Shown here one piece after another: positions 8,079 to 26,729 of a stretch of DNA of 64,000 nt. A model generated the notes under the pieces. That model did not search any database. It worked only from the letters and a program-made list of their open reading frames with translations, and was not told where the DNA came from. The stretch is taken from contig NZ_CP009110.1 in the NCBI RefSeq assembly GCF_000739085.1, positions 1 to 64,000 on the forward strand, read 5' to 3'. How positions within the stretch are numbered: position 1 is the first letter of the stretch; every line of letters starts with the position of its first letter. The position numbers and the translations under genes were made by a program. This stretch comes from Amycolatopsis methanolica 239 (GTDB taxonomy: Bacteria > Actinomycetota > Actinomycetes > Mycobacteriales > Pseudonocardiaceae).

Positions 8079-10061
<1,983 letters not shown>

Positions 10062-10103
10062 CGCGCCCCGCCTCCGATTCCCATTCGTCAGTAGAAGGAC
10101 CCC

Positions 10104-13370: not shown

Positions 13371-13447
13371 GGGCCCATAGCTCAGGCGGTTAGAGCGCTT
13401 CGCTGATAACGAAGAGGTCGGAGGTTCAAGTCCTCCTGGGCCCACCA
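13371..13447 (+). tRNA. tRNA-Ile (GAT), target of the integrated element
   Basis: A complete cloverleaf: acceptor GGGCCCA pairs with TGGGCCC (13437-13443), discriminator A at 13444 and CCA at 13445-13447. The anticodon stem CTTCG/CGAAG encloses loop CTGATAA with anticodon GAT, and the T-arm is GGAGG TTCAAGT CCTCC. The 3' half from 13403 is also the left attachment repeat of the integrated element, whose identical 43-bp copy is at 26687-26729. The tRNA stays functional because the element supplies an exact copy of the displaced 3' part. Confidence 0.97.
13403..13445 (+). repeat. attL: 43-bp direct repeat in the 3' half of tRNA-Ile
   Basis: Identical over 43 bases to 26687-26729; the flanking bases differ (G versus T before, C versus A after). 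It runs from the anticodon loop to the first base of CCA. This is the classic layout for a tyrosine integrase that uses the 3' part of a tRNA gene, with the crossover probably at the anticodon loop. Confidence 0.95.
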
Positions 13448-13569: not shown

Positions 13570-14940
13570 TCAGGCGGCTTCTAGTGTGACCTCCACCGCA
13601 TCTGTCCCGAAGCCAGGCGTACCGAGGAACAGGTTGCTGATCTCCTGAGCTGCGGCCTGATCGAGTTCCGGGATGTCCGCGGTGTAGAGGTCCAGGGTGA
13701 ACGCGACCGTGGCGTGACCCAGCCGGGTGCTGACGATCTTGGGATGGACCCCGGCCCGCAGCGCCGTGGTGGCGTAGGTGTGCCTGAGTTCATGCAGGGT
13801 CAGGTGCGGCAGCCCCAGCCGGTCGGCGATACGGGCCAGCCACTCGGTGATCGTGTCCGGGTAGATCGGCCGCCCATCCTCCCAGCAGAACACCAGGCCG
13901 TGGTCCTGGTACGCGTCGGCCCAGGTCGCCTTCTCGGCCTGGATCATCTCCACGTGGGTGAGCAAGGCGGCCACTGTCGCCTTGTCCAGCGAGAGGCGAC
14001 GACGGCTCCGGCGCGACTTGCCAAACCCCTGTCGAACTTTGCCGTTCGTGACCACCCTCGTCGTCCTCACCGCAAGCGCCCCGTTGTCGAGGTCCAGCCC
14101 GTCCAAGCGGAGGCCGGCGACTTCCGAGCGGCGCATTCCGGTCGTAGCCAGCAGCAGCCACATCGCGTAGAGGCGGTCCGACTGGACGGCCGTGAGGAAC
14201 CGTCGTAGCTCCGTCGGGGTCCAGGTCCGGTGGCCTCGATTCTCCGGGGACGGAGCCTTGACAGCCGCTACGGGATTCGTGGGTACGTACTTCCAGGTCA
14301 CCGCATCGGCGAAGGCTGACCTGAGCATGATGTGGACCGAACGCACCGTCTTCTTGCTCAGGCCGTTCGTTTCGCCGGTCGGCGTGCGTCCGGCGCGGAA
14401 CCTCCGCATCGCCTTGTAGGCCGCGTCGTGCGTCACTCCGACCTCCCGGGCTAGCTCCCGCGCGCTGATCTCATCACCGCGGCCAGTCACCTCCTGCCAG
14501 ATTCTGAACATCTCTCCGTTCGTGTCGCGCTTCCTCCGGCCGCTGTTGAGCAGGTGCTCGTAGAGGGAGGTCACGGTGACTGCGTCGATGTCCTGGAGGC
14601 GCTTCTTACCGATCACCGGGATGACGTACGCGCGAGCCAAGGTCTCATAGTTGTTCGCCGTCGTCGGTGACCCGATGCTGTTGCGCATCCTCGGGAACCA
14701 CTCCTCGAAGAACTGGGCGACTGTCCGTTTCGACGGCTTGGTGAGCTGGCCCTCCCGCAGTTTGGCCTGCGCCTCGGCCATCTTTTCCCACGCCTCGTCC
14801 TCGGACTCGAAGCCGCTTTTCCGGATCCGGTTCCGTTCACCGGTCAGCGGGTCCGCCGGACCGTCGAACGCGAACGCCCACTTGTTGCCGCGTCGAGTGA
14901 CCGAACCGGGGATACCGCGGCGCTTCCTGGTACGTGGCAT
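13570..14940 (-). CDS. int: Tyrosine-recombinase integrase
   Basis: Site-specific recombinase that integrates and, with Xis, excises the element at tRNA-Ile. The 456-residue protein has a basic N-terminal arm-binding region, a SAM-like core-binding domain (from about residue 60), an unusual insert near 150-195 (WQEVTGRGDEISARELAREV), and the catalytic domain: TTGMRRSEVAGL with the first Arg (about 265-276), HELRHTYATT (about 380-389) and the region VAFTLDLYTADI with the nucleophilic Tyr (about 413-424). Its ATG overlaps the xis stop (TGATG), so int and xis are translationally coupled. It reads toward the tRNA, next to attL. Confidence 0.96.
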   Translation of the reverse strand: MPRTRKRRGIPGSVTRRGNKWAFAFDGPADPLTGERNRIRKSGFESEDEAWEKMAEAQAKLREGQLTKPSKRTVAQFFEEWFPRMRNSIGSPTTANNYETLARAYVIPVIGKKRLQDIDAVTVTSLYEHLLNSGRRKRDTNGEMFRIWQEVTGRGDEISARELAREVGVTHDAAYKAMRRFRAGRTPTGETNGLSKKTVRSVHIMLRSAFADAVTWKYVPTNPVAAVKAPSPENRGHRTWTPTELRRFLTAVQSDRLYAMWLLLATTGMRRSEVAGLRLDGLDLDNGALAVRTTRVVTNGKVRQGFGKSRRSRRRLSLDKATVAALLTHVEMIQAEKATWADAYQDHGLVFCWEDGRPIYPDTITEWLARIADRLGLPHLTLHELRHTYATTALRAGVHPKIVSTRLGHATVAFTLDLYTADIPELDQAAAQEISNLFLGTPGFGTDAVEVTLEAA

Positions 14941-15179
14941 CAGGCGGCCTCCTCACCAATCGTGGGCAGCTCGGACTCGTCGACTTCAAGTAGCGCGGCG
15001 AGGCCAGAGCGCAGGACGAAGACCCGGCGGCCGAAGCGACGCACAGGCAGCTCACCGGCAGCGGCGTACCGGTATGCGGACGCACGGCTGAGCCCGAGGA
15101 GCTGGGCGGCGGTCGGCAGCGGGATCAATGGCGGAAGGGACTGACCAGCCGTCGTGGTTACCGATCCTGCGGTGTCCAT
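14940..15179 (-). CDS. xis: Excisionase / helix-turn-helix DNA-binding protein
   Basis: Small MerR-like helix-turn-helix protein that directs excision. The ATG at 15179 is preceded by GGGAG at 8 bases and gives 79 residues (MDTAGSVTTTAGQ...); a longer frame opening at 15224 lacks a good ribosome site. The winged-helix core reads LPTAAQLLGLSRASAYRYAA, then GELPVRRFGRRVFVLRSGLA. It overlaps int by one base and follows the rep gene by 55 bases, giving the order rep-xis-int common in AICEs. Confidence 0.88.
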   Translation of the reverse strand: MDTAGSVTTTAGQSLPPLIPLPTAAQLLGLSRASAYRYAAAGELPVRRFGRRVFVLRSGLAALLEVDESELPTIGEEAA

Positions 15180-15234
15180 GTGGTGTGCTCCCATGAGTCG
15201 AACTGGGTGTGGTCGAGGGGGCATGTAGGGGTGG

Positions 15235-16485
15235 TCAGGCGTTGTTGCCGACGACTTTGAGGGGGGTTGCCGTCCCAGCCGTACCAGCCTCGTTTTTGCT
15301 GGTCAGGGGCGGTACGGCTTTTTTGCTGGTACGGCTTGAGCCGTACCACTCGTCAAGCCGTACCGGGTCTGAGCTGGGGTTATGAGGCTGGTACGGCTGG
15401 GACGGCTCACCCCCTCCGGACGTGTCGAGATCGGGTGCGTAGCGGCTCCAGGCGTCGGCGAAGTCGGCGCGCTGGTAGCCCTTGGCCTGCCCGCTGCCGG
15501 GGAAGCGGATGGTGGCCGAGCGGATGCCGTACTCCTTGAGCAGCGACCCGAGTTTCATGGCGGTGAGCCCGGTCGGACCGAACTCCCGCCACGGGGACTC
15601 CTCCAGCCCGCGCAGGCGGTGCAGCAGCTCGGCGGTGGGCAGGGCGAGGTCGTCGGCGAAGGCGGTGCGGCAGTCGATGAGCAGCCGCAGCCGGTCGGAG
15701 ATTTCCCCGGTCTCGTTGTGCTCCCGGGTCATCTCCACGGCGGCGGTGCGGGCACGTTCGGGCCAGTCGCCCCCGGCGTGGTCGGCGACGGCCACCAGCG
15801 GCTCCCACGTGTCGGCGGCCCGGTCCTCAACGGGCATGGCCGGTTCGGCGCGCTCGAGGACGGCCATGTCGCCGCGCAGCCACTCGGTGAGCCGCTGCGC
15901 GAGCGCCCGGAGCGGTTCCCGGTCGCGGCGAGCGCGGTAGGGGAAGGTCTTCTCCCCGGAGGCGCGGCGGCGCATGTGCACGACCACGGCGCGGTCCTCG
16001 ATGGTGTCGGGCATCGCCCCGATCCCGGCGAGCGCGGCCATCGCGAACGTGGGGATGGTCACGACCTTGGAGGTGGCGGCGTCGTAGCGCAGCGCTGGCC
16101 GGCCGCGCTGGTGTCCGGCGTTGAGCAGCCCCCGCAGGTCCTCGTTGTCCCCGGCCTTGGGGCCGAAGATGGTGTCGGCCTCGTCCACCAGCAGCACCGG
16201 CGGGTCCGGGGTGATCGAGCGGTACACCGCGGCCGGGCTGGCGTTGACCGTGATCAGCGGGTCGTGGCAGGTGGCCTCCACGATGTCGAGCAGCCGCGAC
16301 TTGCCGCACCGCCGCTCCGGTGCCCGGATCACCAGCCGCGGGGCGTGTGCCCAGGCGGGTTGGACGTGGGTGGCGGCGATCCAGAGGACGACAGCGTCGG
16401 TGGCCTGTTCGGAGGGCATGACCACGTAGCGGGTCAGGGCGTCGTGGAGCTGGGCGAGCAGTGTCGCTCCGGGGTTGGCGGTCAT
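15235..16485 (-). CDS. DUF3631-type P-loop protein, putative element replication protein (RepAM position)
   Basis: The 416-residue protein starts at ATG 16485 (MTANPGATLLAQLHDAL). The ATPase core has Walker A-like ERRCGKSRLLD (about residues 71-81), Walker B PVLLVDEADTIF (about 110-121) and arginine-rich motifs after AIEDRAVVVHMRRR-like sequence, typical of DUF3631 helicase-like proteins on actinobacterial mobile elements. The last ~60 residues are low-complexity, and their DNA carries the symmetric repeat array. The position directly before xis-int matches the replication gene of AICEs such as pMEA300 (RepAM). The start overlaps the upstream stop by one base (TGATG). The role in replication is inferred from fold and context. 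Confidence 0.72.
   Translation of the reverse strand: MTANPGATLLAQLHDALTRYVVMPSEQATDAVVLWIAATHVQPAWAHAPRLVIRAPERRCGKSRLLDIVEATCHDPLITVNASPAAVYRSITPDPPVLLVDEADTIFGPKAGDNEDLRGLLNAGHQRGRPALRYDAATSKVVTIPTFAMAALAGIGAMPDTIEDRAVVVHMRRRASGEKTFPYRARRDREPLRALAQRLTEWLRGDMAVLERAEPAMPVEDRAADTWEPLVAVADHAGGDWPERARTAAVEMTREHNETGEISDRLRLLIDCRTAFADDLALPTAELLHRLRGLEESPWREFGPTGLTAMKLGSLLKEYGIRSATIRFPGSGQAKGYQRADFADAWSRYAPDLDTSGGGEPSQPYQPHNPSSDPVRLDEWYGSSRTSKKAVPPLTSKNEAGTAGTATPLKVVGNNA
15272..15403. repeat. Mirror-symmetric array of six GGTACGGCT motifs (candidate replication origin)
   Basis: Six copies of the 9-mer GGTACGGCT or its complement AGCCGTACC start at 15277(-), 15311(+), 15328(+), 15339(-), 15356(-) and 15390(+). 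Start-to-start spacings are 34, 17, 11, 17 and 34, exactly symmetric about 15337.5, and each pair is inverted. The outer arms are perfect 20-bp inverted repeats (15272-15291 and 15384-15403); the inner pair forms GGTACGGCT-TG-AGCCGTACC. The array lies in the coding 3' end of the rep gene, where the protein is low-complexity. An initiator-binding site or plasmid-type origin is the natural reading; no experimental support is visible here. Confidence 0.8.
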
Positions 16486-16997
16486 CAGGCGGCCACCTCC
16501 AGGTGGGTCGGGGCCGTCGTGGCGGCCTGGTAGCGGGTCCACAGTTCGTCGATGGCTGCGGTGTCGTCGGCCAGCTCCCGCAGCACGGCAGTGGGCGAGC
16601 TGGACGCGGCCTGCTCGATGCGGCGGGCGTGGGCGAGCAGCGCGCGCCGCCACGCGGCCTCCAGCAGCACGGCCTTGAGGTGGTGAGCCAGCTCAGGCGG
16701 CGGGGCGTCGCGGAAGGTGTCAACGAGCCAGCCGGACAGCCACTCGCGGCGCTTCTCACCCGGTGCCTGGCCGGTGGCGAGGGCGTGGGCGTAGAGGGTG
16801 ACCGGGGCCGGGGTGTGGTCGGCGGCCACGACCTCGATGGCGAGTTGGAGGACGTGGGCGGCCATGCCGCCGGTGAAGTCGGTCGCGCGCATCCCGGCCA
16901 GCACCCGTCGCGCGGGGCGGGCGGGCATCTGCATCAGGCAGCCGAGGAACTGGCGCTCCGGGTCGGTCAGGGCGTCTGTCGCTGTGGCGGTAGGCAT
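16485..16997 (-). CDS. Stand-alone DnaB N-terminal-domain-like protein
   Basis: The ATG at 16997 (MPTATATDALTDPERQFLGCLMQMP) follows GAAAGG at a suitable distance; 170 residues. The N-terminal ~100 residues follow the pattern of the helical N-domain of replicative helicase DnaB: an ERQFLGCLM helix, then RATDFTGGMAAHVLQLAIEV and DHTPAPVTLYAHALATG. No RecA-like motor follows, only a helical Ala/Arg-rich tail (about 120-170). It is coupled to the P-loop gene downstream. Together they could be a split helicase/loader pair or a device that recruits host primase. The similarity is judged by eye. Confidence 0.6.
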   Translation of the reverse strand: MPTATATDALTDPERQFLGCLMQMPARPARRVLAGMRATDFTGGMAAHVLQLAIEVVAADHTPAPVTLYAHALATGQAPGEKRREWLSGWLVDTFRDAPPPELAHHLKAVLLEAAWRRALLAHARRIEQAASSSPTAVLRELADDTAAIDELWTRYQAATTAPTHLEVAA

Positions 16998-17616: not shown

Positions 17617-19830
17617 TCAGCCGTTCCCTCCCTCGCGGGCAGCGAGCGCCTGGTGGACACGCTCGGTGAACACCATGAGGACGCTGACCTTGGTGACCTT
17701 GCAGCCGTGCTCGGCGAGCTGGTCGCGCAGCCCTTCGGCCTTGAGGCTGAGGTAGGGGCGGTAGTCGGGGGCCAGCTTGCGCAGCCGGGAGCAGACGTCG
17801 GTGGCCGGCACTTTGTCCTCCCCGGGCTCCAGCACGGCGGCTACGTCGGCGAGCAGGTCACGCTGCTGCGGCTGCTCGATCGCGGCGCGGTGGACCCGGC
17901 CGCCGCGCAGCTCGACTCCGCGGGTGACGATCGCGGCCTTCTGCTGGTCGGTGAGGTTGTAGGAGCGCAGCAGGCCGGGGGTGTCCATGTACCCGACGGT
18001 GACCGAGGTGCCCACGTCGTTGAGGGCCACGATCTTGCCGCCCTTCTTCACCGCGGGCTTGAGTTCCAGCGCCGAGAGCCCGTTCTCGTACGCCTTCTCC
18101 CCGAGCACGACGTTGTTGCGGGCCTTGTCACCGATGGCGAAGCACGCCTTGTTGGTGGTGACCGCGACCAGGTCCCGCGGCAGGGACTGGTCCGAGGGGG
18201 TCGGGGTGGCGAAGTTCAGCACGATCCCGTACTTGCGGGCGGCGGAGAAGAACCGCACGACCAGGTTGACCACCTCGCGCCGGTCTTCGGGCTTGTCCTG
18301 CCGGAAGAAGCTCTGGCACTCGTCGATGACCACGATCCGGGGCCGCAGCCGGTCGTCCTTCTCCGCGGCTTCGCGGGTGACGGCGCTGATGCCGTACTCG
18401 CGCAGCAGCCGGCCCCGCTCGGCGAGGGAGTCGTGCAGGGCGTGGATGTGGTCCATGCACGCCTGGACGTTCTCGGCGGTGTCGCCCATGGAGATGATCG
18501 AGGCGACTGGGCGCAGCCATTCGTAGTCGTTGTTCTCGGCGAAGCAGAACACGTCGATGTCCACCAGCGGGTCGAGCACCGCCCCGGCCAGCTCGGTCTG
18601 GACCAGCGTGGACTTACCGGAGCCCATGATCCCGGCCTTGACGAAGTTGCGCTCGAACACCGGCGTTTCCACGGGGTTCCAGCGGGCGTCGATGCCGACC
18701 GGGAACCCGGTCCAGAAGTCGGTCTGTCCGCCGTCGAGCAGCGGGTAGTCCGGCACCGGCTTCCGCAGCGACCCCGGGTCCAGGACCAGGCACTTCATCG
18801 CCATCGGGTCGTTGTCGTCGACCTCGACCCACACCTCCTCCGGGCGTCGCCCGAGGTTGTGCGCCAGCACGGTCTTGCGGGCGTTGATGCTGGTCGCGGG
18901 CACCCCGGACGGAAGCCGAAGCACGAACTCCCAGCCGTGCCCGACCGGCAGCGGCGGCTGCACCCAGGTCGGGGTGATCGCGGTGCCCCAGCCCTCCTTG
19001 AGCTTCTTGTTCAGCGCCGGGTGGCCCAGGTTGCGCAGCGCGTTCATGATCACCGACTCGTCCACCGCCGTCTCCGGGCCGCCCGCGGCGGCCGGGGCCG
19101 AGCGCAGCCAGCCGGGCAGCTCGACATGCTTGCGGCCCTGGTAGTGCAGGTAGTAGAACCCGGCCGCGGTGCCCCCGGCCAGCAGGAACACCCCGTAGGT
19201 GACCACGAACCACACCGCGAACGCGATCGCGTCCACCACTGCGCTGATCGGGCCGATCACGTCGGCGATGTGCCCGGAGCTGACCGCCAGGATCATCCCG
19301 AGGACCAGCAGGAACCCGGCCACACCGACGATCCCGAGCGCCCCGGCCTTAATCCACTGCCCGGGCGCGGCGACCCAGTCCATCACCCGCTGGTGGCGGC
19401 GCTGCTTCTCCGCCACGTCGCGGGCCTCCCACTCCAGCAGCCGCTCGTGGTCGCCCTCCAGCTCCGCGGCGAGCATCTGCCGCTCGTAGCGGGACGCGCC
19501 GTGGGTGTCGCGCCACCGCTTGAGCACCACCCCGGCCCCGGCGATCGGGTAGCCGAACACGTGCCGCCCGGTGGCCTTCACGAGGGTCTTGGTGCGGTCG
19601 TGGAAGGCGACGGTCTTCACCGCCCGCCCGGCGGTGACCAGGTCGCGCCGGTAGCCCTTGTAGCGCTCGATCGCCTGCCCGCGCTGGGTGAACAGCCGCT
19701 GGTACTCCTCCTCGGAGATCAGCTCCCCCTCCACCACCTCGGTCTCGGCAGGGGTCGGGGTGGTGTCGGCGCGGTGGGTGGGCAGGTAGTGCACCCGCGC
19801 CAACTCCTCCTGCTCGTGCTGCTGGGTCAC
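17617..19830 (-). CDS. FtsK/SpoIIIE-type conjugative DNA translocase (TraB/TraSA-like)
   Basis: Hexameric ATPase thought to pump double-stranded element DNA between hyphae in AICE and Streptomyces plasmid transfer. It has 737 residues with a GTG start overlapping the upstream stop by 4 bases. Order: a charged N-terminal segment, two membrane segments (about 163-183 and 200-228), then the motor with Walker A AGIMGSGKST (about 399-408) and Walker B RIVVIDECQ (about 498-506). The C-terminal ~70 residues contain a winged-helix-like segment (ATDVCSRLRKLAPDYRPYLS), the position where TraB-type proteins recognise their clt repeats. Last gene of the transfer operon. Confidence 0.9.
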   Translation of the reverse strand: MTQQHEQEELARVHYLPTHRADTTPTPAETEVVEGELISEEEYQRLFTQRGQAIERYKGYRRDLVTAGRAVKTVAFHDRTKTLVKATGRHVFGYPIAGAGVVLKRWRDTHGASRYERQMLAAELEGDHERLLEWEARDVAEKQRRHQRVMDWVAAPGQWIKAGALGIVGVAGFLLVLGMILAVSSGHIADVIGPISAVVDAIAFAVWFVVTYGVFLLAGGTAAGFYYLHYQGRKHVELPGWLRSAPAAAGGPETAVDESVIMNALRNLGHPALNKKLKEGWGTAITPTWVQPPLPVGHGWEFVLRLPSGVPATSINARKTVLAHNLGRRPEEVWVEVDDNDPMAMKCLVLDPGSLRKPVPDYPLLDGGQTDFWTGFPVGIDARWNPVETPVFERNFVKAGIMGSGKSTLVQTELAGAVLDPLVDIDVFCFAENNDYEWLRPVASIISMGDTAENVQACMDHIHALHDSLAERGRLLREYGISAVTREAAEKDDRLRPRIVVIDECQSFFRQDKPEDRREVVNLVVRFFSAARKYGIVLNFATPTPSDQSLPRDLVAVTTNKACFAIGDKARNNVVLGEKAYENGLSALELKPAVKKGGKIVALNDVGTSVTVGYMDTPGLLRSYNLTDQQKAAIVTRGVELRGGRVHRAAIEQPQQRDLLADVAAVLEPGEDKVPATDVCSRLRKLAPDYRPYLSLKAEGLRDQLAEHGCKVTKVSVLMVFTERVHQALAAREGGNG

Positions 19831-20951
19831 TTGCGGCCTCCCTTGGTGTGTTCGTCGCGGAGCTGGCGGGCGCGGGCCGCCGACACGCGCAGGGTCTTGC
19901 GGATCGACTCCGCCGAGGTCGGGTTGACCGTCCCGGCCTCGATCGCGGCGGCCAGCTCGGCGCGAAGCTGCTCGATCGACCGGCCGGGCTTGCGGTCGGC
20001 TCGCTGCTGGTCGGGGGTCGACTCATGCAGGTCAGGGCCGTGGTCGAGGGTCGCCACCGCCCCGCCCTCGATCGAGTCGCCCGGGTCCTGCTCGCCCTCG
20101 ATCGACGGCTTCGAGCCAATGGCGGTGTTGGCGAGCAGGTCGGCCAGCTCGCGGTCCCAGTCGGTCGAGGCGGCCACCGGCAGGCCGGGCGCGGTCGCGG
20201 GCTCCAGTGCGCGCCAGCGGGTGAGGGTGTAGCGGCCGGGGGCGTAGAGCAGCCGGGCGGAGCCGTCCGCGTCGATCTCGGCCACCGCGCGCTTGACCGC
20301 GGCGCGGCGGATGCGGGCGACCTTGCGGGCGGCGGCCCGCTCGATCCGCGCCTCCCGCCGCTGCTGCCCGGACTTCGGGGCGGTCGCCAGCGTGAGCTGG
20401 TGGGCGACCACCCCGGCGATCGAGGCGGTGCCCATCACCACGCCGTGGTCCCACGCGGTGGTCAGACCGTGGGTGAAGTTGATCCCGAACGCCACCGCGC
20501 CGAACACCAGCACCCCGGCCACCAGACCCCACACCGAGCGATCCGGGTGGCGGCGGCGCTGGATCACCACCGCGACCGCGAACGCCCACATCCCCAGCTC
20601 GGTGATCCCGGGCAGCAGCGCACCCAGCCCGGAGGCGAACACCTCGACCCCGTAGCGGGCCATCGCCGGGGCCGCCAGCACGAACGACAGCAGCGCAATC
20701 GGGTAGATCAGCAGCTCCACCACGTGCGCGCCGAGCCAGGCGCGGAGGCCACGTACGGCGGCGGCCCATCGCTCACGGCGGGCGGCGGCTGCCTGCTGCT
20801 GGGCCTCGCGGCGGGCCTGTTCGTCCTCGCGCTTGATCTGCGCCGCGGCCTGCCGCTCGGCGATCCGCACTTGCGCGGCCGCCGCGGCGTCCTCGCGCCG
20901 GATCATCGCCTCCGTGCGCTTGTTCTCGCGCCGCTCCTCATACCAGCTCAC
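19827..20951 (-). CDS. Multi-span membrane protein with HTH-like tail (DUF2637/SpdB-like)
   Basis: 374 residues, GTG start overlapping the previous stop by 4 bases (GTGA). The first ~65 residues are a charged Ala/Arg/Glu/Gln-rich helix, probably a coiled coil. About four membrane segments lie between 75 and 195 (VELLIYPIALLSFVLAAPA, WGLVAGVLVFGAVAFGI and others). The tail ends in SAESIRKTLRVSAARARQLRDE, a helix-turn-helix-like pattern seen in DUF2637 proteins next to plasmid translocases. It is likely a spread or mating-related partner of the translocase encoded directly downstream. Confidence 0.6.
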   Translation of the reverse strand: MSWYEERRENKRTEAMIRREDAAAAAQVRIAERQAAAQIKREDEQARREAQQQAAAARRERWAAAVRGLRAWLGAHVVELLIYPIALLSFVLAAPAMARYGVEVFASGLGALLPGITELGMWAFAVAVVIQRRRHPDRSVWGLVAGVLVFGAVAFGINFTHGLTTAWDHGVVMGTASIAGVVAHQLTLATAPKSGQQRREARIERAAARKVARIRRAAVKRAVAEIDADGSARLLYAPGRYTLTRWRALEPATAPGLPVAASTDWDRELADLLANTAIGSKPSIEGEQDPGDSIEGGAVATLDHGPDLHESTPDQQRADRKPGRSIEQLRAELAAAIEAGTVNPTSAESIRKTLRVSAARARQLRDEHTKGGRK

Positions 20952-24664: not shown

Positions 24665-24699
24665 GCTGACCAGGCACAATGCCCGCAAGGGAGGTGACC

Positions 24700-25821
24700 G
24701 TGGGGGACAGCGGGGCAACCGAGAGCAAGCTTCGCCGTGCTCGCCTTGCCGCCGGGATGACGCAAGGCGAGGTCCGGGCCAAGCTCACGCAGGCTCGCCG
24801 TCGCCGGGGCAAGATGCCCCCGAAGGAAGCCAGCTTGAAGCGGATGTACACGTCGTGGGAGACCGGCGCGGTGATCCCGACGGACTGGCGGGACGAACTG
24901 TGCGAGGTATTCGAGCTTCCACCGGCCGCGCTCGGGTTGGTCGAGACCACACCGCCACCTGCGCTCGACCTCCCGAGCACATTCGAGGTGGTCCGGCTCG
25001 ATCCAGCGGTGATTTCGCTGCTAGACCAGCAGACGAACTTCTACCGGCTGCAGGACCGGCTGCTGGGGGCGGCGATCATTCCGCAGACCGAAGCCCACGT
25101 CCGCAACCTTGAGCAGATGCTGCGAAATGCGCTGCCGAGCGGCCACCTTCCGACAGCGGCGGTGACCCTCGCTGAGGCGGCTGCGCTCGCCGGTTGGCAA
25201 GCGCTCGATGCGGGTGATCTCCGGAAAGCGTGGGACCTGCACGACATCGCGAAGTCCGCAGCACGGCAGGGGGAGAACCCAGCCGTGCTCGCGCACGTCA
25301 CGGCGCAGCAGGCTTACGTTCTGCTCGATGCCGGCCGGGCCGCCGATGCGGTGGAGCTGGTCGAGTATGCAAGCGAACCCAGGCTGCTCGGACAGGTCCC
25401 CGCACGCCTTCGGTCGTGGTTGGCCGCGGCGCACGCCGAGTTCCTGGCCGCGGCGGGGGACCGATCCGGCGCGATGCGGCGGCTCGATCAAGCGGCCGAC
25501 GTGCTGCCAGCTGGCGACAACGACCCTGAGTTGCCGTACCTGATGCTGAACGGCGCGCACCTCGCCCGGTGGCGGGGCAACTGCTTGGCGCGACTCGGCG
25601 AAGACCAGGCGATCGAGGACCTGACAGCGGCGCTCGATGGGCTCACCACGCTCACCTCACGGCGAGCAGAGGCGGGGCTTCGTGTAGACCTCGCGCTTGC
25701 CCTGCGGAAGCGCGGCGACCTGGACGAGTCGCGCGTGCAGGCCCGACAAGCCGCCGAGCTGGCCGGCACAACAGGCTCAGCCCGGCAGCGAGCCCGGATC
25801 GCGGAGCTACTTGCCGCCTAG
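24700..25821 (+). CDS. XRE-type HTH regulator with TPR domain
   Basis: The GTG at 24700 has GGAGG 5 bases upstream and gives 373 residues; the ATG at 24679 has no such site. The N-terminal helix-turn-helix (KLRRARLAAGMTQGEVRAKL to about residue 75, with an insert) is followed by about 270 residues of helical TPR-like repeats (LHDIAKSAARQGENPAVLAH; QAYVLLDAGRAADAVELVEY). This layout is common in actinobacterial regulators that sense a peptide or small ligand. In an element it could control excision, replication or transfer. Its gene converges on the Nudix gene with a 15-base overlap. Confidence 0.8.
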   Translation: MGDSGATESKLRRARLAAGMTQGEVRAKLTQARRRRGKMPPKEASLKRMYTSWETGAVIPTDWRDELCEVFELPPAALGLVETTPPPALDLPSTFEVVRLDPAVISLLDQQTNFYRLQDRLLGAAIIPQTEAHVRNLEQMLRNALPSGHLPTAAVTLAEAAALAGWQALDAGDLRKAWDLHDIAKSAARQGENPAVLAHVTAQQAYVLLDAGRAADAVELVEYASEPRLLGQVPARLRSWLAAAHAEFLAAAGDRSGAMRRLDQAADVLPAGDNDPELPYLMLNGAHLARWRGNCLARLGEDQAIEDLTAALDGLTTLTSRRAEAGLRVDLALALRKRGDLDESRVQARQAAELAGTTGSARQRARIAELLAA

Positions 25822-26686: not shown

Positions 26687-26729
26687 CTGATAACGAAGAG
26701 GTCGGAGGTTCAAGTCCTCCTGGGCCCAC
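26687..26729 (+). repeat. attR: 43-bp copy of the tRNA-Ile 3' half
   Basis: Perfect copy of 13403-13445. It holds only the 3' part of the tRNA (from the anticodon loop) with no acceptor 5' strand or D-arm, so it is a remnant and not a second tRNA. Confidence 0.95.

Follow-up and report, generated by a model that had tools for sequence, protein, structure and literature searches.

A mirrored array at the 3′ end of rep as the probable replication origin of an Amycolatopsis integrative element

A mirrored array of short sites (15268-15407), overlapping the 3′ end of a rep gene, is proposed as the replication origin of an integrative element in Amycolatopsis methanolica 239. It lies in the window, i.e. 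the whole stretch of 64,000 nucleotides that was analysed (NZ_CP009110.1, positions 1 to 64,000). We consider it very probable (roughly 0.8) that this array is the origin, with its sites read by Rep and replication in theta mode, because the array letters change in step with two DNA-reading residues of Rep. Binding and replication data are not available, and the role as an origin, beyond that of a Rep-bound control site, is inferred.

The element and the layout of the array

Two copies of a 43-bp direct repeat, 13,284 bp apart from repeat to repeat, delimit a 13.3-kb integrative element in a tRNA-Ile gene (13371-13447). Within its gene set, the integrase is clearly assigned by Pfam and the FtsK-like gene only marginally. 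The features of the element are as follows:

13403..13445, no strand: att core at one element end, 3′ part of tRNA-Ile; direct repeat with 26687-26729
13570..14940, minus: tyrosine integrase (PF00589, E=3.1e-21)
14940..15224, minus: excisionase-like HTH_17 gene (xis) downstream of rep, start mechanically called (PF12728, E=2.3e-9)
15235..16485, minus: rep, DUF3631 (RepAM-class) initiator with predicted AAA+ core and C-terminal winged helix (PF12307, E=1.9e-67; fold model)
15436..15645, minus: codons for residues about 281-350, the C-terminal winged helix of Rep (from modelled secondary structure)
15511..15513, minus: codon 325, first wing strand, covarying with site position 7 (Thr-A, Asn-C)
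15556..15558, minus: codon 310, start of the recognition helix, covarying with site position 2
16485..16997, minus: 170-aa protein upstream of rep (open reading frame)
17617..19830, minus: FtsK/SpoIIIE-like transfer protein (PF01580, 23.9 bits, just under the cut-off of 24)
26687..26729, no strand: att core at the other element end

Rep reaches 227.4 bits against PF12307 (cut-off 24), and the array overlaps rep codons 360 to 406 approximately. The xis product stays under the cut-off of TIGR01764. The 170-aa frame (16485-16997) overlaps the rep start, is detected only in some relatives and has no significant family match; an impression that it resembles the N-terminal domain of DnaB found no support in searches. 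A gene for an NsdA-family TPR-like regulator (24679-25821) lies within the element, close to the far att site. The element is probably pMEA300 of A. methanolica, which we take to agree with it in size and tRNA-Ile site; the identity is unproven. The same genome contains a second DUF3631 rep, about 40% identical (G000:C1:547067-548137; L114, L246), in an element at 547 kb with its own mirrored CGTAACC array and identical CAGGTCAG/CTGACCAG boxes.

The sequence-only reading had described six exact motifs in the window with start spacings of 34-17-11-17-34 and perfect 20-bp inverted repeats as outer arms. Positions, orientations and spacings were all confirmed, as were the arms (15272-15291 against 15384-15403); chance alone would give 0.36 motifs in the window, and none of 100 shuffles reached six. 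The count of six fell short of the full array, which comprises eight 9-bp sites: AGCCGTACC-like copies at 15268-15276 and 15399-15407 add a 9-bp step on each side and extend the mirror. The start spacings are thus 9-34-17-11-17-34-9, and on the rep strand the mirror reads >9>34<17<11>17>34<9<. TGCCGTCCC differs from AGCCGTACC by two changes and GGGACGGCT by one. The array is composed of:

15268..15276, plus: outermost site TGCCGTCCC, degenerate (repeat comparison)
15277..15285, plus: site AGCCGTACC, exact motif
15286..15294, plus: third 9-bp step AGCCTCGTT, degenerate, a recognisable site in some relatives
15299..15306, plus: second-type box CTGGTCAG
15311..15319, minus: site, exact motif, GGTACGGCT on the plus strand
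15328..15336, minus: site, exact motif
15339..15347, plus: site, exact motif
15356..15364, plus: site, exact motif
15369..15376, minus: second-type box, CTGAGCTG on the plus strand, one change from CTGACCTG
15381..15389, minus: third 9-bp step, degenerate
15390..15398, minus: site, exact motif
15399..15407, minus: outermost site GGGACGGCT, one mismatch

Across the 7.24-Mb genome, 123 copies of the motif are present (59 + 64), and six of these lie within 122 bp; a reversed control pattern occurs 241 times. The AT content of the array gaps is 37-54%, compared with 29% upstream and 33% downstream, and by this measure the array contains no strongly AT-rich melting element, a point against the origin reading.

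Sequence between the motifs had been thought not to be conserved between the arms. Across 43 canonical loci this is true of the 17-bp gaps, where left and right match at 0.29 (shuffled 0.30), and not of the 34-bp gaps, where the left gap and the reverse-complemented right gap agree at 0.61 (shuffled 0.32). The similarity of the 34-bp gaps is due to a second mirrored box, CAGGTCAG/CTGACCAG, which occupies them. The place of this CAGGTCAG/CTGACCWG box is fixed, with TCA at offset 17 in 43 of 43 left and 40 of 43 right gaps. In remoter loci, exact forms of the box (six words allowed) were found near the rep end in 25 of 47 cases (15/27, window included, and 10/20 viral), as opposed to one of 47 upstream stretches; a search for exact forms found none in the phage locus L091. 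The box is kept also where the main site differs, e.g. in the 547-kb element, so that its putative reader is probably more conserved than the winged helix.

Conservation of the array and covariation with Rep

A contig scan yielded 138 Rep relatives, of which the best 80 were kept. A motif-free finder was applied to 83 loci, namely 79 of these 80 (L061 ends too soon), the window, two Streptomyces plasmids and a Pseudomonas phage, with at least four mirror-paired sites as the criterion. The mirror geometry was met in 82 of the 83 loci (L048 has two) and in two of 166 control stretches drawn from these loci. In these 82 loci the array lies at the rep 3′ end; it is detached in a few others. A strict chain of six core sites is present in 43/80 loci (the 79 and the window), with arms agreeing within 1 bp in all 43, and several other loci have an additional inward pair at the array centre.

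Neighbouring genes vary among the loci that keep the geometry, and so do the stop codon and reading frame. The array contains the rep stop codon in 58 of 80 loci; in 19 the stop follows the array, and in three it precedes or overlaps the first site. The fourth site begins in all three codon phases (24, 14 and 5 of 43). The proposal that the protein tail is dictated by the DNA is borne out; as far as these comparisons reach, it is the DNA rather than the protein that is conserved at the rep end.

Remoter relatives have different site sequences, and the mirrored arrangement returns: TCCGCTACC in the Streptomyces plasmids (Rep 41% and 44% identical), ATCCGCGACA in the Pseudomonas phage (Rep 36% identical) and CGTAACCGG in the 547-kb element of the window's own genome. 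In the phage (Phipami28, L091), four ATCCGCGACA copies are mirrored (>51>21<51<) at +1343 to +1475 of a DUF3631-like gene annotated as hypothetical, inside its 3′ end. Looser sets gave a weaker result: four mirror-paired sites were reached by 12 of 27 phylum-wide family matches, the loosest set (window included; controls 0/27), and by 11 of 20 viral contigs (controls 1/60). Within the bacterial family, Rep was found in 114 of 390 genomes; 150 places were listed and 110 read, 67 close to the window's clade and 43 remoter. From the close 67, 35 were dropped, as their 220-bp array stretch is identical to that of a used locus, and one was too short, leaving 31. The criterion was met in 58 of these 74 unused, non-duplicate loci (close 23/31, remoter 35/43) and in none of 74 controls. 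The 16 failures comprise 11 loci without an array at the rep end and five whose repeats are not mirrored by the criterion (L184, L202, L207, L227, L232).

The letters of the sites follow two Rep residues. At position 7, A occurs with Thr325 in 30 of the 80 loci, with Met in two and with Leu in one, and C occurs with Asn325 in 46 and with Thr in one. The rule Thr325-A/Asn325-C therefore holds in 76/80 loci; its exceptions are L082 (C with Thr) and three AGCCGTAAC loci with Met or Leu. Residue 325 has a covariation score of 0.75, compared with 0.22 for the next best among the columns that the array does not encode. Columns 386 and 392 correlate trivially, being encoded by the array itself, and were set aside. 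At position 2, G accompanies Met, Ala, Ser, Asn, Val or Ile at residue 310 (71/71), and other letters accompany Arg or His (9/9). Residue 310 does not cleanly separate the non-G letters: Arg occurs with C five times and T once, His with A twice and T once.

On a tree of Rep residues 1-300, the position-7 letter changes 15 times, at least 10 of them on starred branches. Ten independent pairs on starred branches were compared, and in a mean of 9.7 of them residue 325 (Asn or not) changes along with the letter (p about 0.002). For position 2 (G or not) and residue 310 (Arg/His or not), all seven of seven independent pairs agree (p=0.016), and position 8 changes only once on the tree. All copies of an array switch together, as 742 of 790 sites carry the position-7 letter of their own element.

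A CCGTNCC scan of the 31 unused close loci gave the letter/residue pairs C/N 17, A/T 7 and T/N 3, and G/N, T/Q, C/P and C/T once each. The odd pairs came from scattered matches without an array, and therefore the motif-free finder was used instead. Among the 23 unused close loci with an array, all 22 with Thr or Asn at 325 fit (L203 has Pro), and residue 310 fits in 20 of the 20 loci where position 2 is readable. The unused loci are not independent by descent of the first set.

In the model of Rep, residue 310 is placed at the start of the recognition helix and residue 325 in the first wing strand. A reading of the sites by the putative C-terminal winged helix is supported, indirectly, through covariation and in the absence of binding data. 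The sequence-only idea of an initiator-binding origin inside rep gains support from the covariation with residues 310 and 325 and from the fit of detached arrays of the same clade.

The specificity switches might also arise by swapping of a whole module, which is not excluded. A swap could account for the finding that the nearest neighbour shares the motif in 69/80 loci when chosen by winged-helix DNA and in only 52/80 when chosen by AAA+ DNA. With the contact codons left out, however, the difference vanishes in pairs of 80-85% AAA+ identity (winged-helix identity 0.800 for same-motif and 0.800 for different-motif pairs); in pairs of higher identity it remains (0.844/0.820 and 0.921/0.889). 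Local rewriting fits better than a module swap. Different motifs are also seen in the locus list as co-residents of single genomes, which might be a sign of incompatibility.

Arrays away from rep

The sequence-only reading had placed the origin within its own rep gene. This describes the 82 loci above; embedding is not essential, because some relatives carry the array 9-16 kb away. When the 11 array-less loci were followed, seven had an array about 9 to 16 kb upstream of rep. L161, L173 and L197, all with His310, have upstream clusters of 12, 10 and 11 exact AAGCGTCC, of which 12, 8 and 10 copies are mirrored (determined by hand from the positions). An ANCCGTMCC scan found nothing in these three loci, and the AAGCGTCC arrays emerged from a motif-free cluster search. 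Among the first-set Reps with His310, two of three have AAGCGTCC(C) and the third has ATCCGTCCC. L167 (Ala310, Asn325) has ten detached AGCCGTCCC, with the centre split by about 200 bp. In the four of seven detached arrays that can be checked, i.e. those of the window's clade, the motif fits the expectation from residues 310 and 325; the His310 expectation derives from three cases and was not recorded in advance. The remoter L230, L235 and L236 each have six exact CGGTAACC, detached and in both orientations. No array was present in the stretches fetched for L205 (where the contig ends), L206 and L233, and the stretch searched for L243 has only weak repeats. No second Rep-like frame was found in the seven stretches with detached arrays. 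By separating the array from both rep and xis, the detached arrays constitute the strongest evidence against explanations based on coding or on xis; a coding function as the reason for the array is rejected on this ground.

Further loci show other arrangements. In L251 an array about 9.3 kb upstream of rep is split at its centre by about 200 bp, 40% AT compared with 32% in the adjoining 10 kb, with both halves intact. L256 (3737-4041) contains 61-bp unit repeats with CCGCGTACGCGG palindromes about 0.5 kb from a detached array. L010 has two complete tandem origins at rep +1060 to +1460, a AGCCGTACC array followed by a CGGTAACC array, each with CAGGTCAG-type boxes, and only one Rep-like gene in the locus.

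A half-array pattern was found at 62 places in 41 of the 390 genomes, and 39 of these 41 belong to the 114 that have a Rep match; the reversed control pattern gave no match in the 390 genomes. Apart from the detached L167 case, six places have no listed rep alongside: one at a contig end (G582:C49) and five that were fetched. In three of them (L267, L268, L269), whole AGCCGTCCC arrays near 9900-10100 lie about 1 kb or less from a tyrosine integrase, and no whole rep was found in 19.9 kb each. The only Rep match in L267 is to the array-encoded tail, and two of the three places share a genome in which a Rep of the fitting type lies elsewhere. L270 and L271 contain C-terminal pieces of Rep. The rep-less arrays may be remnants or satellites.

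Proposed mechanism, alternatives and known systems

A first structure model of Rep was poor (pLDDT 65); a second, built with more diverse relatives (pLDDT 87.4), was used. It predicts an AAA+ domain and a C-terminal winged helix. Fold matches include MCM, NrS-1, PriRep1, D5/E5 and ORC/Cdc6, with a moderate TM of about 0.4, and also the non-replicative AAA+ proteins RavA, RuvB, ComM, NorQ and LONP1. A profile of the 80 Reps found no chain among PDB sequences up to E=10, although PriRep1 is in the PDB.

In the proposed mechanism, Rep would act as an AAA+ helicase-like initiator that reads each 9-bp site through its C-terminal winged helix. A half-array would consist of two or three sites 9 bp apart, the CAGGTCAG box and two opposite-facing sites, and would nucleate one Rep assembly. 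As the halves face each other, two oppositely oriented rings are expected to be loaded. The DNA between the rings would be opened, and replication would proceed as theta rather than rolling circle. The overlap with the rep 3′ end would merely be a convenient position for the array. In L167 the split leaves both halves of the array intact, which points to the half-array as the unit and to the centre as the place where the strands would part. Binding, the two rings, melting, theta replication, and the hexamer and helicase activity of Rep are all inferred.

The array could instead be mainly a Rep-bound control site, for autoregulation of rep-xis-int or for copy control by origin pairing, with the origin elsewhere. 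In the window, the called xis start is 43 bp downstream of the array, and the covariation is evidence of contact with Rep and not of initiation. Iteron arrays can serve as both origin and control. Arrays nevertheless persist 9-16 kb from rep and xis, rep-xis arrangements without an array exist (L161, L167, L205, L233), and whole arrays occur within about 1 kb of an integrase in stretches that yielded no whole rep. A mainly regulatory role is thus regarded as unlikely.

Slightly less likely still is rolling-circle initiation by RepAM, in which case the array would provide the binding part of a double-strand origin and a nick site would lie close by. Initiators of the pC194 type carry a catalytic HUH motif and nick at CTTGATA. 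A motif scan of the window's Rep found no HxH, and histidine is kept in over half of the 80 Reps only at positions 40, 47, 74, 125, 185 and 236. The consensus nick sequence is absent from both strands of the element; the shorter CTTGAT occurs at 20832, 22217 and 25487, all far from the array. Mirror symmetry would also have no obvious use in a one-way mechanism. Rolling-circle replication was predicted for RepAM, with pC194-like nick sites cited, in the part of PMC3218068 available to us. The predicted AAA+ fold and the lack of HxH argue against this mode and for a self-loading helicase like that of SaPIs, within the limits of a model.

Binding of the array by the excisionase or by another non-Rep regulator is very improbable. 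The gene xis is immediately downstream of the array; the site letters, however, follow Rep residues, and array-less loci still have an excisionase-like frame after rep. Moreover, L013 keeps the array and a 97% identical Rep next to an unrelated integrase (25% identical), and the window Xis gives no detectable match there. Short repeats for the translocase occur in actinomycete elements, yet a transfer locus recognised by the FtsK-like protein is the least credible reading, as L010 and L012 have the site sequence of the window with an FtsK of only 28% and 26% identity, respectively (identity comparison only).

With Rep-dependent initiation at the array as the preferred reading, a broader picture can be offered tentatively and is, in our view, still somewhat doubtful. 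A single modular origin might be common to a whole class of actinobacterial mobile elements. It would consist of facing half-arrays whose letters are set by two winged-helix residues, with all copies rewritten together to give new incompatibility types. Such an origin could leave its gene, double (L010) or sit on rep-less elements, which as satellites might borrow a Rep encoded elsewhere in the cell. The finding provides a named residue-to-base code for an initiator family still labelled 'unknown function' by Pfam and present in 114/390 genomes of the bacterial family. It points to helicase-type over rolling-circle replication, and it makes the origin motif partly foretellable from the Rep protein sequence. 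Natural sister pairs, such as L058 (Thr325, AGCCGTACC) and L074 (Asn325, AGCCGTCCC), are available for studying the joint change of specificity in an initiator and its eight or more binding sites.

An origin of this type is known in outline; its layout, code and moved forms were not found in the literature searchable here. Most subscription papers were outside the scope of that search, and nothing was recognised in it as describing this array. In 2006, te Poele and colleagues reportedly described binding or inverted repeats in repAM; part of this origin may already be in print, perhaps partly mapped. Archaeal Orc1/Cdc6 proteins, which are among the fold matches, likewise combine AAA+ with a winged helix. 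They recognise inverted origin boxes, load a separate helicase and belong to a different family.

Within the literature searched, DUF3631 and RepAM with pMEA300 are discussed only in PMC3218068, where, in the accessible portion, RepAM is held responsible for autonomous replication of pMEA300; two further papers mention pMEA300. RepAM shares with the window's Rep the Pfam family, the int, xis-like and FtsK-like neighbours, the tRNA-Ile site and the size of about 13.3 kb. The eight-site mirror, the two second-type boxes, the residue-site code and the detached arrays do not appear in the portion of PMC3218068 at hand. The oriV of the IncU plasmid RA3, another plasmid system, has been mapped to the 3′ end of repB according to the accessible text of PMC9455977, and likewise lies at the end of an initiator gene.

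Among the closest known systems are SaPI Rep and SCC Cch2, self-loading helicases whose iteron origins lie downstream. As far as the excerpt of PMC7581432 goes, SaPI Reps use the C-terminal domain to bind repeats immediately following their gene, apparently as two hexamers. The shared features would be a helicase-like initiator, C-terminal recognition of repeats (for the window's Rep from covariation only) and a downstream position of the repeats, and PriRep1 is among the fold matches. The window-type array differs in often overlapping coding sequence and in its second-type box. As the profile search found no sequence relation, the window's Rep is best described as working like a SaPI Rep, without being classed as one.
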